From Phycisphaerae bacterium (GTDB lineage Bacteria > Planctomycetota > Phycisphaerae > Phycisphaerales > Phycisphaeraceae): 64,000 nucleotides of DNA. The notes below the pieces were generated by a model. It had not been told where the DNA came from and searched no databases. It saw only the letters and a program-made list of their open reading frames with translations. The stretch lies in assembly GCA_030425705.1 (NCBI GenBank), contig JAUHZU010000008.1, positions 1 to 64,000 on the forward strand, read 5' to 3'. Of the stretch, positions 13,465-49,014 are shown piece after piece. A program made the translations under genes and the position numbers. Within the stretch, counting starts at the first letter, position 1, and every line of letters begins with the position of its first letter.

Positions 13465-14511
13465 TCAGCCCACGGCCGCGCCCGTGCCGATGGTCTTGCC
13501 TACGGCCTTGAGGTCTTCGCAGGCCTCCTTGACGCGCTCGGCCATCGCGGTCTCGGCCTGCTTGAGGTAGGCGCGCGGGTCGTAGAACTTCTTCGCGCCG
13601 ACCTCGCCGTCGATCTTGAGGACGTTGTCGTAGTTCTTAAGCATGTGGTCGACGATCGGCCGGGTAAAGGCGTACTGGCAGTCGGTGTCGACGTTCATCT
13701 TGATGACGCCGTACTCGAGGGTTTCCTCGATCTCGTGCTTCTCTGAGCCCGACCCGCCGTGGAAGACGAGGTAGAACTTCGCGTCGTTGCCGAACTTCGC
13801 CTTGATCGCGTCCTGGCCTTCCTTGAGCAGCTTGGGGCGGAGCTTGACGGCCCCGGGCTTGTACGCGCCGTGCACGTTGCCGAAAGTCGCGGCGAACATG
13901 TACGTGCCGTCGACTTTCGACATGGCGTCGTAGACGCGGACCATGTCTTCGGGCGTGGTGTAGAGGGCCGAGTCGGGGGTGTCGTGGCTGCCGGCCGCGC
14001 CGTCTTCTTCACCGCCAACGACGCCCGCCTCGATCTCGATGACCTGGCCGATCTTGGCCATCCGCTCAAAGATCGGCACGGACAGCGCGAGGTTTTCTTC
14101 CAGCGGCAGCCCCGAGGCGTCGAGCATGTGGGAGTTGTAGAGCGGCAGCTTGCCCTCGGCGACGCGCCGCTCGGATTCTTCGATCAGCGGGATCATGAAC
14201 GTGTCGACCGCGTCCGGCGGGCAGTGGTCGGTGTGGAGCACGACGTTGACATCCAGCTTCGCCGCGGCGCGGTGGACGTGCTCGGCCAGCGAGATCGCGC
14301 CCATCACCATGTCGCCGTTGACCAGGCCCGAGGCGAACTTGCCCCCGCCGGTGGAGACCTGGATCATGCCGTCGGACTTGAGCTCGGCGAAGGCCTTGAG
14401 CGCCGCGTTGGCGGTGACCATCGAACTGATATTGATCGCGGGGTAGGCGAACTTGTTGGTGTAGGCGTTGTCCAGCAAGCGGACATAGGTGTCGTAGTCG
14501 GCGACAGGCAT
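13465..14511 (-). CDS. fba: Class II fructose-bisphosphate aldolase
   Basis: A 348-residue zinc-dependent aldolase that cleaves or forms fructose 1,6-bisphosphate in glycolysis and gluconeogenesis. Zinc-site motif HTDHCPPD is at 93-100. YLVFHGGSGSEKHEI and the following KMNVDTDCQYAF form the second metal ligand and phosphate-binding part. The N-terminus (AYPAINISSMVTANAALKAF) and length match the long (type A, FbaA-like) class II enzymes. Together with fbp at 56.5 kb it covers the gluconeogenic steps around hexose bisphosphate, although the two genes are not linked. Confidence 0.95.
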   Translation of the reverse strand: MPVADYDTYVRLLDNAYTNKFAYPAINISSMVTANAALKAFAELKSDGMIQVSTGGGKFASGLVNGDMVMGAISLAEHVHRAAAKLDVNVVLHTDHCPPDAVDTFMIPLIEESERRVAEGKLPLYNSHMLDASGLPLEENLALSVPIFERMAKIGQVIEIEAGVVGGEEDGAAGSHDTPDSALYTTPEDMVRVYDAMSKVDGTYMFAATFGNVHGAYKPGAVKLRPKLLKEGQDAIKAKFGNDAKFYLVFHGGSGSEKHEIEETLEYGVIKMNVDTDCQYAFTRPIVDHMLKNYDNVLKIDGEVGAKKFYDPRAYLKQAETAMAERVKEACEDLKAVGKTIGTGAAVG

Positions 14512-14608
14512 CGCGGGCTCCTCGGCGGTGGGTGGGGGCGTGTTTCAACTCAAACCGGTCGGCACGGGGGGAATCCCGCGGGCCATCGGTGTCGGACAAG
14601 CCGGGCAT

Positions 14609-14614
14609 TATACT
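14609..14614 (+). promoter_or_regulatory. -10 box just upstream of argJ
   Basis: TATACT with 8 nt before the argJ ATG. No good -35 is visible at the usual distance. The position predicts a leaderless argJ mRNA. Confidence 0.5.
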
Positions 14615-14622
14615 CCACCCCC

Positions 14623-15861
14623 ATGAGCGGACCAGTCGCCCCAACGAACCTGCATAGTCTGACCCGCCCCAAGGGCTTCTCCGTCGCGTCGGGGACCTGC
14701 GGGCTCAAGCCCTCGGGTCGCCCGGACCTGGCCCTGATCGCTGCCGATGCGCCCTGCCCGTCGGCCGGCGTCTTCACCCGAAACAAGGTCAAGGGTGAGC
14801 CGGTCAAGGTCGGCATCCGCCACCTGCGTGCCAGCGGCGGCATGCTCCGCGCCGTGGTCGTCAACAGCGGCTGCTCGAACGTCGCGACGGGCGAACAGGG
14901 CCGGCGGGACGCTGTAGCGATGTGCAGGCAGGTCGCCGAGACGCTGGGCTGCGCGACCCGCGAGGTGGTGCCCTGCTCGACGGGTGTGATCGGCCGGCAC
15001 CTGGACATGGGCAAAGTCCTGCCGGGCATCGGTGCGATTGCCCCGCGCCTCGCCCGCGGCAGGCAGGCCGACGCCGACGCCGCCCGTGCGATCCTCACCA
15101 CCGACCTGGTCCCCAAGGCCGCGTCTCGCACCGTCACGCTCGGCGGCAAGCGCGTCACACTTGGGGGGATCTGCAAGGGCAGCGGCATGATCGCGCCCAA
15201 CCTCGCAACGATGCTCGCGTTCCTGACCACCGACGCCGCGATCGAGCCCGCCCCGCTCAAGGCCCTGCTCCAGGAGTGCACCGCCGGCAGCTTCAACCGC
15301 GTCACCGTCGATACCGACACGAGTACCAGCGACAGCGTGCTCCTGATGGCGAACGGTGCCGCCGGGGGTCGGGTGATCCGCAAGCCCGGCGCATCCTACG
15401 ATGCGCTGCGCGACGCGGCGATGGACCTCTGCCGCGACCTGGCGTATCAACTGGTCTGCGACGGCGAAGGCGCGACCAAGGTGTTCCGTGTCACCGTCGA
15501 AGGGGCGAAGCACGAGCGCGACGCGGACCGCGTCGGGCGCAGCGTGGCCGAGAGCCCGCTCGTAAAGACCGCGGTCCACGGTGGCGACCCGAACTGGGGC
15601 CGGCTGACGATGGCGGTGGGCAAGAGCGGTGCGGCGGTCCGGCCGGAGTTGCTGACCGTGTCGGTCGGGCGGGTGTGCGTGTTCAAGGCGGGGATGCCGA
15701 CCAGGCTCACCGCCACCGAGCAGCGGGCCCTCACCACCGCGATGGCGGCCCGGGAAGTCCCTTTCGCGATCGATCTGGGCCTGGGTGGAGGCCGGTGCGA
15801 GTGGCTGGGCTGCGACCTGTCACGGGAATACATCCGAATCAACGCCGAGTACACGACCTGA
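14623..15861 (+). CDS. argJ: Glutamate N-acetyltransferase / N-acetylglutamate synthase
   Basis: A 412-residue ArgJ that moves acetyl from N-acetylornithine to glutamate in the cyclic arginine pathway; many members also make N-acetylglutamate from acetyl-CoA. The proenzyme self-cleaves before the Thr of the MIAPNLATMLAF motif, here Thr196, giving alpha and beta chains of about 195 and 217 residues. The oxyanion motif is VVNSGCSNVATGEQG. Near the C-terminus GGDPNWGRL and the terminal NAEYTT match the family. The upstream open frame extends far into antisense of fba and is not coding. The mRNA is probably leaderless. Confidence 0.96.
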   Translation: MSGPVAPTNLHSLTRPKGFSVASGTCGLKPSGRPDLALIAADAPCPSAGVFTRNKVKGEPVKVGIRHLRASGGMLRAVVVNSGCSNVATGEQGRRDAVAMCRQVAETLGCATREVVPCSTGVIGRHLDMGKVLPGIGAIAPRLARGRQADADAARAILTTDLVPKAASRTVTLGGKRVTLGGICKGSGMIAPNLATMLAFLTTDAAIEPAPLKALLQECTAGSFNRVTVDTDTSTSDSVLLMANGAAGGRVIRKPGASYDALRDAAMDLCRDLAYQLVCDGEGATKVFRVTVEGAKHERDADRVGRSVAESPLVKTAVHGGDPNWGRLTMAVGKSGAAVRPELLTVSVGRVCVFKAGMPTRLTATEQRALTTAMAAREVPFAIDLGLGGGRCEWLGCDLSREYIRINAEYTT

Positions 15862-16020: not shown

Positions 16021-16533
16021 TTGCTCCGTTGCGGCCTGAGTCTTGTAGAGGTATCGGTAGCCACCTGCCTGATCGCGGTGCTCGCGGCGGTGTCGCTGCC
16101 GATGTTGTCGCAGGCGAACAGCCAGGCCCGGACCAGTGCCTGCCGCGCGAACCTGACACAACTCGGTGAGGTCCTCGTGGCGTACGAGGCAGACCGCGGC
16201 ACCCTGCCTGTGCTGTTTAACCGCGACGACCGCGCGCTGAGCGTACCGACACTCGACGGCCTGGCCCAGTCCTACACCATCGACACCAGCGCACTCCAAT
16301 GCCCCAGCGACGACAGCGGGCTCTACCTCCGATCCGGGACCAGCTACCAGTGGTTCTCCGCGTGGGACGGCCGATCGTTCCATGACATCCAGCCGCTACC
16401 GGAGCGCCCGCTGCTGGCTGACAAGGCACCGCTCCATGACGACCAGGAACCGGGATTCAACGGCCTGTTCTGGGTACCCTCCGAATACCTTGCCGACGCC
16501 CCGCGCCTGGTCGCGGATCACTACGCCCCCTGA
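16021..16533 (+). CDS. Prepilin-like (type II pseudopilin) protein
   Basis: A 170-residue protein with a type IV prepilin N-terminus: a short leader MLRCG then LSLVEVSVATCLIAVLAAVSLPML, with Glu at mature position +5, and a helix continuing into CRANLTQLG, as in planctomycete DUF1559-like proteins. The C-terminal part contains paired Cys residues and a loose globular domain. The only plausible start is TTG at 16021, since no ATG/GTG in frame precedes the leader. The usual DUF1559 H-x-G-G-x-x-F/ADGH ending is not present, so it is a divergent member. Envelope assembly or secretion role is inferred. Confidence 0.65.
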   Translation: MLRCGLSLVEVSVATCLIAVLAAVSLPMLSQANSQARTSACRANLTQLGEVLVAYEADRGTLPVLFNRDDRALSVPTLDGLAQSYTIDTSALQCPSDDSGLYLRSGTSYQWFSAWDGRSFHDIQPLPERPLLADKAPLHDDQEPGFNGLFWVPSEYLADAPRLVADHYAP

Positions 16534-16568
16534 TCGCCGGGCAGCGGATCGGCCGGCCTGGGGTCTGC

Positions 16569-16574
16569 TAAGAT
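16569..16574 (+). promoter_or_regulatory. -10 box of the UAA-anticodon tRNA gene
   Basis: TAAGAT lies 8 nt before the first tRNA base at 16583, the right distance for transcription starting at or near the mature 5' end. No clear -35 is visible. Confidence 0.45.
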
Positions 16575-16582
16575 CAGGCCCC

Positions 16583-16656
16583 GGCTCGGTAGCCCAATCG
16601 GCAGAGGCAACGGATTTAAAATCCGTCCAGTGCGGGTTCAAGTCCCGCCCGAGCCA
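16583..16656 (+). tRNA. tRNA with UAA anticodon (reads UUA, Leu) but class I fold
   Basis: A 74-nt cloverleaf. Acceptor GGCTCGG/CCGAGCC has seven pairs. The D-stem is short (GCC/GGC). Anticodon stem ACGGA/TCCGT has loop TTTAAAA, giving anticodon UAA at 16617-16619. The variable loop is only 5 nt (CCAGT). T-arm GCGGG/CCCGC encloses TTCAAGT. Discriminator A is at 16656; CCA is not encoded. By codon it should be tRNA-Leu(UAA), yet bacterial Leu tRNAs carry a long variable arm, as both other Leu tRNAs in this window do (40307-40392, 40440-40523). It may be charged with another amino acid, be a specialised tRNA, or be a relic. Confidence 0.85.
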
Positions 16657-17053
16657 TGCGCCTCGGTACCGTCATCGGTTGATCTCAACAAACGTAAGGC
16701 GGGACCCTTGTTTACTCCTGCCCCGCGTTTGTCCTTGATCTGTTCAGGCGGGATGCCCCGGGTCTCTGGCATCCTAAACCGCATCCAGGCTAGTTGAATG
16801 GCTATCAGGATTGGGTCCGGTGCTCCAAGATTCGAAATCGAACCCGGACGCCGCGGGCAGCCGTCCTGCCTGGTTGATTACGCAAAGCCGGAGTACCTGG
16901 CCCCAAGTGCTCTTGCCGACTTCACCCTGCATAAGCAGGATGGATCGAGATCGGTTTGCTCTGATAGGAAGGACCGACGACTAGCTGCCGGAACGAGCGT
17001 GCACGAGAAAGAGGTTAGTGTGTAACGGTTCTGGATTGGCTGTGCTTCCCTGT
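16657..17053. other. Intergenic stretch without a supported gene
   Basis: No reading frame here looks coding. A loose inverted repeat pairs CAAACG (16689-16694) with CGTTTG (16726-16731) and has GC-rich arms between them; it may terminate tRNA transcription. A 75-codon frame from 16798 lacks a ribosome-binding site and has atypical composition. Confidence 0.5.
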
Positions 17054-40301: not shown

Positions 40302-40306
40302 TCAAG

Positions 40307-40319
40307 TGCCCGGGAGAGG
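40307..40319 (-). repeat. tRNA-Leu(GAG) 3' end, candidate att site (right)
   Basis: The 13-bp TGCCCGGGAGAGG here forms the end of the functional tRNA gene and recurs at 27153-27165 in the same orientation. An element inserted here would keep the tRNA intact by supplying its 3' end. Confidence 0.7.
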
Positions 40320-40392
40320 ATTCGAACCTCCAAGGAGTTTTACCTCCACCGCGACCTCAACGCGGCGCGTCTGCCAGTTCCGCCACCCGGGC
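40307..40392 (-). tRNA. tRNA-Leu (anticodon GAG)
   Basis: An 86-nt class II tRNA. Acceptor GCCCGGG/CCCGGGC, D-arm GGCGGAACTGGCAGACGC, anticodon stem CCGCG/CGCGG with loop TTGAGGT (GAG, reads CUC/CUU), a long variable arm (TGGAGGTAAAACTCCTT region) typical for Leu, and T-loop TTCGAAT. Discriminator A is at 40307; CCA not encoded. It is followed by its terminator and then the putative island. Probably cotranscribed with the tRNA-Leu(TAG) upstream. Confidence 0.95.
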
Positions 40393-40439
40393 TTGGGGGC
40401 GAGCCGCACAGTATAGCCCCATCCGGCGGGGGTCTGCAA

Positions 40440-40523
40440 TGCGGGTGAAAGGACTCGAACCTTCACGGGTGTTACCCCACCAGAACCTAAATCTGGCGCG
40501 TCTGCCAATTCCGCCACACCCGC
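40440..40523 (-). tRNA. tRNA-Leu (anticodon TAG)
   Basis: An 84-nt class II tRNA with acceptor GCGGGTG/CACCCGC, D-arm GGCGGAATTGGCAGACGC, anticodon stem CCAGA/TCTGG with loop TTTAGGT (TAG, reads CUA), long variable arm (GGGGTAACACCC-type stem) and T-loop TTCGAGT. Discriminator A is at 40440; CCA not encoded. It is 47 bp upstream of tRNA-Leu(GAG) and divergent from hscB. Confidence 0.95.
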
Positions 40524-40543
40524 ATGGTGCGCGGGCATGATAC

Positions 40544-48276: not shown

Positions 48277-49014
48277 ATGCATGACGCAGGACGCGTGCCA
48301 ACCGATCGTCACACCGAGCCGAACTTTGCCGGTGTTTCCCCGTCCCAGCCAACCGCCCCGGCGGTGGTCCCTCCTCTTGACGGGGTAGACGGCTCCCCCC
48401 TACCCCTGCCCCGCAAGAAGCCGGCCACCTGCCTCGACGAGTCGCAGGTGCTCGACGCCACCTCTCGCGTCCTCCGCGAGAAGGGCTACGACGGCACAAC
48501 GATCCGCGCGATCGCCAAGCAGCTCGGCTGCGCGGTCGGCTCGATCTACCGCTACTTCCCGGACAAGCGGGCGTTGCTCGACGGCGTCTGTCAGCGGCGG
48601 TTCGAGCCCGTCGCCGAGCAGGCGGAGCTGCGTTCGGGCGTCCTGACCTCGGTGCAGAAGTACGCCCGGGTCGCCGCGGAGCAGCCCGAGCTGTACCGCC
48701 TGATGTTCTGGCTGGCGAGTGTCGGCAAGCAGCAGATGGGCGAGGCGCTGCCCGCGGTCACACGGCGGATCATCGCCGGGTGGGCGGAGTCGCTCGGCGA
48801 CCAGACCCGGGCCAAAGCCCTGTGGGCCCAGCTCCACGGCTGCATCATGCTCGGCCTCGCGCCGGACCAGGCCGTCACCCTGCTCGACCTCTCGGGCGTT
48901 GCCGATCCGTCTCGGCCGGTGCTCCCCAACACGCCCTCGGCGGTGGCATTTGCGCAAACCTCTGACGCCTCCTCGACGAAGGTAAGCGCGGCGCGTGAGA
49001 CCGTTGGACGGTAG
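48277..49014 (+). CDS. TetR/AcrR family transcriptional regulator
   Basis: A 245-residue regulator. A long Pro-rich, unstructured N-terminus (1-50) precedes the TetR HTH: LDATSRVLREKGYDGTTIRAIAKQLGCAVGSIYRYFPDKRALLDGV (about 59-104), with the recognition helix VGSIYRYF. The C-terminal ligand/dimer domain includes YARVAAEQPELYRLMFWLAS, a line common in TetR_C_33-type (WHG) members. The extra N-terminus is unusual; the strong ribosome-binding site at 48265 supports the long form. It sits alone between ilvD and ispE; target unknown, possibly itself. Confidence 0.9.
   Translation: MHDAGRVPTDRHTEPNFAGVSPSQPTAPAVVPPLDGVDGSPLPLPRKKPATCLDESQVLDATSRVLREKGYDGTTIRAIAKQLGCAVGSIYRYFPDKRALLDGVCQRRFEPVAEQAELRSGVLTSVQKYARVAAEQPELYRLMFWLASVGKQQMGEALPAVTRRIIAGWAESLGDQTRAKALWAQLHGCIMLGLAPDQAVTLLDLSGVADPSRPVLPNTPSAVAFAQTSDASSTKVSAARETVGR

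Follow-up and report, generated by a model that had tools for sequence, protein, structure and literature searches.

A short-armed leucine tRNA gene near argJ

The window, by which we mean the whole stretch of 64,000 nucleotides analysed here from a contig of a Phycisphaerae bacterium (Planctomycetota), carries argJ, a small open reading frame and a tRNA gene in succession on its forward strand (Table 1). Homology to argJ starts at residue 299 of an over-extended reading frame at 13759-15861. ARAGORN calls the tRNA gene, at exactly 16583-16656, as a tRNA-Leu(taa) of 74 nt, and the gene belongs to the tRNA family of Rfam (RF00005), with a score of 63.1 bits (E 2.5e-11) against a cut-off of 29 bits. 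In the ARAGORN cloverleaf the acceptor stem has 7 bp, the D-stem 3 bp, and the anticodon and T-stems 5 bp each. Class I tRNAs have a variable loop of 4-5 nt and class II tRNAs a variable arm of at least 10 nt, as set out in excerpts of PMC7609411; the variable loop of this tRNA, CCAGT, has 5 nt, which places it in class I and not in class II. The anticodon UAA and the discriminator A73 mark it as a leucine tRNA.

An initial annotation of the window, made from the sequence alone, had proposed a class I leucine UAA tRNA at this position, and ARAGORN, RF00005 and the 5-nt loop agree. It had also pointed to the long variable arms of the other leucine tRNAs of the window; these arms are indeed present in the genes at 40306-40392 (GAG) and 40439-40524 (TAG), both class II, which score 55.6 and 49.6 with RF00005. 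Its count of three D-stem pairs stands, but its view of this as a defect does not, as the class II leucine tRNAs of the family and leuZ of Escherichia coli share both the 3-bp D-stem and the D-loop pattern. Folding of the 74 nt gives -34.2 kcal/mol (z -4.44, with none of 200 shuffles as stable), although the minimum-energy fold lengthens the anticodon stem and is not a plain cloverleaf there. Allo-tRNAs are named 8/4 or 9/3 for the lengths in bp of their acceptor and T-stems; such a tRNA is ruled out here by the 7-bp acceptor stem and the 5-bp T-stem.

Table 1. Features of the tRNA gene and its upstream neighbourhood
Feature	Position	Strand	Basis
argJ; syntenic anchor, upstream of the tRNA both here (class I) and in G054 (class II)	14653..15861	+	NF003802 465.3 bits; PF01960 457.4 bits; synteny
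Small pseudopilin-like ORF in the argJ-tRNA interval, with a counterpart in G001	16021..16533	+	Weak GspG match under its cut-off; no Pfam match
Class I tRNA-Leu(UAA); no other reader of UUA found in the genome; CCA not encoded	16583..16656	+	ARAGORN; RF00005; genome tRNA inventory; sequence
A9 and GCCC (positions 10-13), rewired D-stem 5' strand; C12 and C13 mark class I	16591..16595	+	C12:G23 and C13 in 45/45 class I, 0/37 class II
D-loop AATCGGCAGA, with A14, A15, G18G19 and A20a; one base off E. coli leuZ	16596..16605	+	Alignment; determinants from excerpts of PMC9976931
D-stem 3' strand GGC (positions 23-25), partner of positions 10-12	16606..16608	+	Cloverleaf; alignment
Anticodon TAA, gene position 35	16617..16619	+	ARAGORN
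Variable loop CCAGT, 5 nt, in place of the 16-17 nt arm of the family's class II UAA tRNAs; last base U48 pairs with A15	16627..16631	+	Alignment
Discriminator A73	16656..16656	+	Sequence; A73 in 183/183 distinct class I sequences

Conserved stems and a rewired D-stem

All 880 stem cells of 44 distinct planctomycete class I sequences hold standard pairs, a result that is partly built in, as the finder set a minimum of 6 of 7 pairs for the acceptor stem and of 4 of 5 each for the anticodon and T-stems; D-stem pairs were not required. Control pairs slid by one position were standard in 53% and 46%, and compensatory changes are many in the acceptor, anticodon and T-stems. The end pair is G1:U72 in 18 of these 44 sequences and G1:C72 in the tRNA of the window.

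These data bear on the possibility, raised in the initial annotation, that the gene is non-functional, i.e., a decayed or untranscribed copy that resembles a tRNA in score only. A class I shape is unexpected for leucine, and a scan of 16400-16900 found no sigma-70-like promoter or terminator consensus. However, this is the only UAA tRNA found in the genome, the same form occurs in 22 of the 51 genomes of the family (its own included) with stems kept through compensatory changes, and the D-stem pairs, on which the finder made no demand, are standard in 44 of the 44 planctomycete class I sequences. The chance that the gene is such a copy is close to negligible.

The two classes also differ within the D-stem. 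C12:G23 together with C13 was found in 45 of 45 class I sequences, 43 of which have A9, while G12:C23 and G9 were found in 37 of 37 class II sequences. The sequences compared come mostly from searches blind to the D-arm, with some loci from a whole-tRNA query; viral and D-arm-selected sequences were left out, as were class I sequences of the Actinomycetota sample identical to D-arm-selected ones. Since the D-stem differs by class without exception, these alignments indicate that the variable loop did not merely shrink: the core of the tRNA appears to have been rewired with it.

Probable recognition by LeuRS

The initial annotation assumed that bacterial LeuRS requires class II features. This premise does not hold for E. 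coli, where, according to the relevant part of PMC9976931, the long variable arm is not crucial and tRNA-Leu variants lacking it remain active. The same text gives as determinants of E. coli LeuRS A73, A14, the A15:U48 pair, G18G19 and A20a, plus D/T-loop contacts, a set that was measured in a different phylum from that of the planctomycete host. The tRNA studied here carries A73 and the hinge set of A14, A15:U48, G18G19 and A20a. Because this set is retained and does not include the variable arm, charging by LeuRS most likely persists. If transcribed and used by the ribosome, as we infer, it would then read the rare UUA codon as leucine.

A73 is invariant among the distinct sequences of both classes (183 of 183 class I from all sets and 38 of 38 class II). 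At 15:48 the 183 class I sequences, uncorrected for kinship, have A:U in 147, G:C in 27, G:G in 7 (all viral), A:C in 2 and G:U in none; these counts would fit a Levitt pair kept in most class I sequences.

UUA codons and their reader

The genome that holds the window (4.1 Mb in 21 contigs, 98.7% complete) has 49 RF00005 tRNAs, three of them in the window and 46 elsewhere; the latter were also run in ARAGORN. Its other leucine isoacceptors, GAG, UAG, CAA and CAG, are all class II (4/4). A second, class II tRNA-Leu(UAA) gene, the presence of which had been a question from the outset, is rejected: there is no UAA tRNA among the other 48 tRNAs, and the UAA pattern has one match genome-wide. As the genome is 98.7% complete, a second UUA-reading gene is unlikely to have been missed.

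Several other tRNA calls in this genome were noted. A gene at G000:C13:3225-3299 (L029:46-120) is called as Ser(UGA); it has a short loop and the body of the genome's initiator tRNA, with a GGG/CCC anticodon stem, C1 facing A72 and a UGA anticodon, and a pattern for it matches only this genome among the 51 of the family at up to two mismatches. An 84-nt tRNA at G000:C13:239985-240068 (L038:46-129) joins a long arm and a leucine-type D-arm to the proline anticodon UGG; an ordinary tRNA-Pro(UGG) lies elsewhere in the genome (L021). A second tRNA-Arg(ACG) at G000:C16:160901-160973 (L034) differs from the copy at L018. Within the window, ARAGORN calls a 99-nt tRNA-Pro(CGG) at 48522-48620 with poor D and anticodon stems. 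It is probably a false call, because it is absent from the Rfam list and the genome has another tRNA-Pro(CGG) (L017).

UUA was predicted to be very rare, and it is: TTA occurs 8 times in 22,784 homology-supported codons of this genome, or 0.35 per 1000 codons. We compared TTA with the majority residue at conserved positions in stretches of family genomes (15 with the class I and 14 with the class II form; 1.27 Mb in all), leaving out TTA targets and counting homologous positions in related genomes separately. Leucine was the majority at 46 of 63 TTA positions in class I genomes and at 54 of 78 in class II genomes; by the same measure, the other leucine codons gave 72-88%, and Ile ATT, Val GTG and Met ATG gave 5-15%. 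When the host genome was compared with its relative G001, all eight TTA positions in conserved context corresponded to leucine, and five of the eight are TTA in both genomes. One of the eight is residue 288 of the argJ reading frame, probably just upstream of the true start. The alignments thus indicate that UUA is read as leucine, with the tRNA at 16583-16656 as its only reader found.

The initial annotation suggested that another synthetase may charge this tRNA, or that UUA may have been reassigned. The class I shape and the rarity of UUA could be taken to favor such a change, and the tRNA-Phe and tRNA-Lys of the genome (55 identities each in whole-length alignment) are nearly as close to this tRNA as is its best match, tRNA-Leu(CAA), with 57. 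However, the listed LeuRS determinants are kept, and a single bacterial LeuRS of the genome passes the curated cut-off (six weaker matches fall below it). TTA faces leucine as often as it does in class II genomes, and at eight of eight positions between the host genome and G001, and a relative, G054, has a class II tRNA-Leu(UAA) at the same locus. Hence reassignment is rejected by the codon data, and the alternative as a whole, that of a different synthetase or a changed meaning of UUA, is very improbable.

The tRNA could also have a regulatory role. The bldA tRNA of Streptomyces, which is class II and differs in this from the tRNA of the window, offers a model in which UUA marks conditionally expressed genes and the tRNA is made on demand. 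Like bldA, which is the precedent as described in part of PMC4255298, the tRNA here would read a rare UUA codon in a GC-rich genome, and both the low TTA frequency and the single gene copy found would suit such a system. However, TTA is used freely in two other class I genomes, G009 (25 in 4,225 codons) and G060 (37 in 4,200); the class I form is therefore not tied to TTA rarity, and we think bldA-like regulation unlikely.

Distribution of the class I form

Among the 51 genomes of the host family (own genome included), 22 have the class I form, 19 have the class II form, none has both and 10 have neither (3 with only other matches and 7 without any). For this count the anticodon loop and T-loop were matched together, at any distance from each other and without regard to the D-arm, and the classes were told apart by match spacing, by eye. 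Thirty loci of the family were fetched, and a UAA tRNA was confirmed in 27 (16 class I and 11 class II). In a sample of the phylum, the class I form is present in 28 of 392 genomes, from 11 families; these 28 were found by class I spacing, and 20 were fetched, 5 were already in the set and 3 (G612, G619 and G674) were dropped.

When named genomes were scanned for a D-arm pattern, at least 119 stretches matched. Among 80 listed loci, 78 hold an ARAGORN tRNA-Leu(UAA) of 74-77 nt, and 72 are Actinomycetota by title (Mycobacterium, Nocardia, Gordonia, Corynebacterium, Microbacterium, Arthrobacter and others). The rest of these 80 comprise two Planctomycetota and one each of Rokubacteriota, Chloroflexaceae, Deltaproteobacteria, Myxococcales, Pyrinomonadaceae and an entry titled plainly 'bacterium'. 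Whole-genome searches of 26 genomes with D-arm matches found the class I gene to be the only clear UAA tRNA in 23, as judged by eye. In G325 and G326 the class I matches lie within tRNA arrays and are accompanied by a class II-spaced match; G314, also among the 26, is ambiguous, and G303 and G312 carry additional, unfolded matches. The statement that no genome has both forms is limited to the 51 genomes of the host family; outside it, G380 combines a class II UAA tRNA with one of class I type. Both classes also occur in a sample of 139 Actinomycetota genomes, from which 30 fetched loci gave 6 class I tRNAs (one from the centre genome), 14 class II tRNAs and 10 loci without a UAA tRNA. On these searches, the class I form appears patchy in Planctomycetota and frequent in Actinomycetota, and present in phages and tRNA arrays.

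History of the locus

The initial annotation had named a standard class II form at this locus in a related genome as evidence against its proposal. Such a form does exist: G054, of the same family, has a class II tRNA-Leu(UAA) about 0.2 kb after argJ. However, it does not imply decay of the class I gene; together with the conservation described above, it points to conversion in place. In the window's genome and in G001 the order is argJ, one small reading frame and then the class I tRNA. Of 14 class I stretches, 10 have argJ no more than 7 kb from the tRNA, upstream in eight (G000, G001, G018, G024, G009, G060, G048 and G061, of which G000 is the genome of the window) and on the other side in two (G002 and G013); it was not seen in the stretches of G007, G010, G059 and G003, the last of which is short. 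Of the eight class II stretches, argJ is near the tRNA in that of G054 and was not found in the other seven. The genes downstream of the tRNA in G054 recur 3' of the class II tRNAs in G019 and G011 and lie 7-10 kb downstream in G047. G054 thus links the two kinds of neighbourhood. The simplest account of this synteny, which rests on G054 and the class II genomes sharing its downstream genes, is one ancestral locus that may bear either form.

The acceptor strands agree with a local origin in part. In the f1 set, which includes a few loci from other families of the order, each of nine class I strands is within 0-2 bases of a class II UAA strand of f1; the agreement between classes is weaker in f26, f40 and f54. 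Acceptor strands of the two classes differ by a mean of 1.97 within families, a value dominated by f1, and 3.13 between families. The tRNA of the window shares with the class II gene of G054 its acceptor strand save one base, as well as its argJ neighbour. On a LeuRS tree of 27 family genomes (without G054, G006 and G017, and with 6 of the 27 rows covering about half of the protein), the class label needs 2 changes, against a mean of 9.3 for shuffled labels, and a value as low was obtained in 0 of 500 shuffles. As the class label is clustered on this tree, the class I form would seem to have been inherited mostly vertically within the family. Descent from another class I tRNA of the same genome by a change of anticodon is ruled out by the class II UAA gene at the locus shared with G054; the identities to the genome's own tRNAs given above are not decisive alone.

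We propose that the class I gene arose in place from an ancestral, argJ-linked class II tRNA-Leu(UAA) gene. In this conversion the variable arm of 16-17 nt would have become a loop of 5 nt, G12:C23 would have become C12:G23, position 13 would have changed to C and G9 would mostly have changed to A.

Class I tRNA-Leu(UAA) genes also occur on viral contigs and in tRNA arrays, and some of them could have been the source of this change. A TAA tRNA was found in 80 of 80 viral loci fetched from at least 80, and 80 of 81 such genes have 73-78 nt. The arrays of G022 and G037 carry class I leucine tRNAs, and the tRNA is matched in 28 named phage records, of which 20 have a tRNA-Leu, of whatever anticodon, annotated under the match. 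The D-arm is near-identical across Planctomycetota, Actinomycetota and viruses, which may mean that the body of a foreign gene was acquired. Hence the interior of the resident gene may derive from recombination with a class I tRNA-Leu(UAA) of a phage or tRNA array and not from a local deletion, with the function of the product the same as under our preferred explanation. However, the viral and named-genome sets were chosen on the D-arm, so that likeness in this part is built in, and a leucine tRNA with a short arm may require this D-arm structurally and have reached it by convergence. The outer parts of the gene, moreover, look local in the host family: acceptor strands lie 0-2 bases from those of class II genes, the locus is shared and the class clusters on the LeuRS tree. 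We regard import of the interior as a credible possibility, though not as the expected course of events.

The viral contigs with the class I form (L395-L474) have a median of 3 and up to 21 tRNAs per stretch, and this tRNA stands alone in 21 of the 80. The tRNA arrays, with up to 19 tRNAs in 3 kb, lie on G037:C32 (L051, L073 and L071) and G022:C180 (L054 and L065); these arrays and contigs of G037 and G022 have short leucine tRNAs with CAG, CAA and GAG anticodons, and G022 also has UAA. A more speculative view, to which we give rather little weight, is that the class I tRNA-Leu(UAA) is a mobile, self-consistent UUA decoder on phages and arrays that has repeatedly replaced the interior of class II genes in several phyla, perhaps escaping nucleases or toxins that recognise class II tRNAs.

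Discussion

The gene at 16583-16656 is very probably a working leucine tRNA that arose by in-place conversion of a class II gene linked to argJ, is most likely charged by LeuRS and reads the rare UUA codon. This conclusion is drawn at the level of sequence, from the structure of the gene, its being the only UAA tRNA found in the genome, the kept determinants, the shared locus, the concerted change of the core and the alignment of TTA with leucine. A new code or a new synthetase is not the case. The tRNA appears ordinary in function; it is unexpected in form, and we rate the form as more widely spread than the cited texts suggest.

The tRNA resembles bacterial class II tRNA-Leu(UAA), such as E. 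coli leuZ, in its anticodon, A73, A14, A15, G18G19, A20a, U48 and 3-bp D-stem. Unlike it, the tRNA of the window has a 5-nt loop, C12:G23, C13 and A9, whereas class II tRNAs have an arm, G12:C23, G or A at position 13 and G9. The class I tRNA-Leu(UAA) of Actinomycetota shares the length class, the anticodon, the D-arm GCCC..GGC and the short loop, but differs in its acceptor strand, which is mostly of the GCCCCNN type. In Mycobacterium tuberculosis, leuX (Leu TAA) and leuV (Leu CAA) are given as 74 bp in table 1 of PMC9336784, in the part of it available to us, and we liken leuX to class I by this length alone; an excerpt of PMC11541572 names Leu-2, -3 and -5 of this species as especially having a long loop. 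The cluster-encoded tRNA-Leu(TAG) of two mycobacteria also has a short variable loop, as described in part of PMC6582537; it is, however, an extra isoacceptor beside the normal one, while the tRNA of the window is a single chromosomal gene.

The human mitochondrial tRNA-Leu(UUR) is an organellar tRNA with a weak anticodon arm. By analogy the tRNA studied here is like it in having A73, A14 and no long variable arm, and passages of PMC9976931 state that the mitochondrial tRNA is recognised by its LeuRS without a long arm and that A73 and A14 give it its identity. The literature searched, of which subscription journals are mostly outside our coverage, yielded no description of a class I tRNA-Leu(UAA) as such, which is no proof that the form is unpublished.

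A long variable arm is given as typical of cytosolic tRNA-Leu in the parts of PMC9976931 and PMC7609411 that deal with it. Our results suggest that this arm is absent from the sole UUA reader found in many bacteria, including mycobacteria and corynebacteria. This calls for caution in tRNA annotation and in studies of enzymes that use the long arm to tell tRNAs apart. Class I tRNA-Leu(UAA) would be a natural test of what LeuRS needs, and it appears to offer a clear case in which the core of a tRNA was rewired upon loss of the arm.
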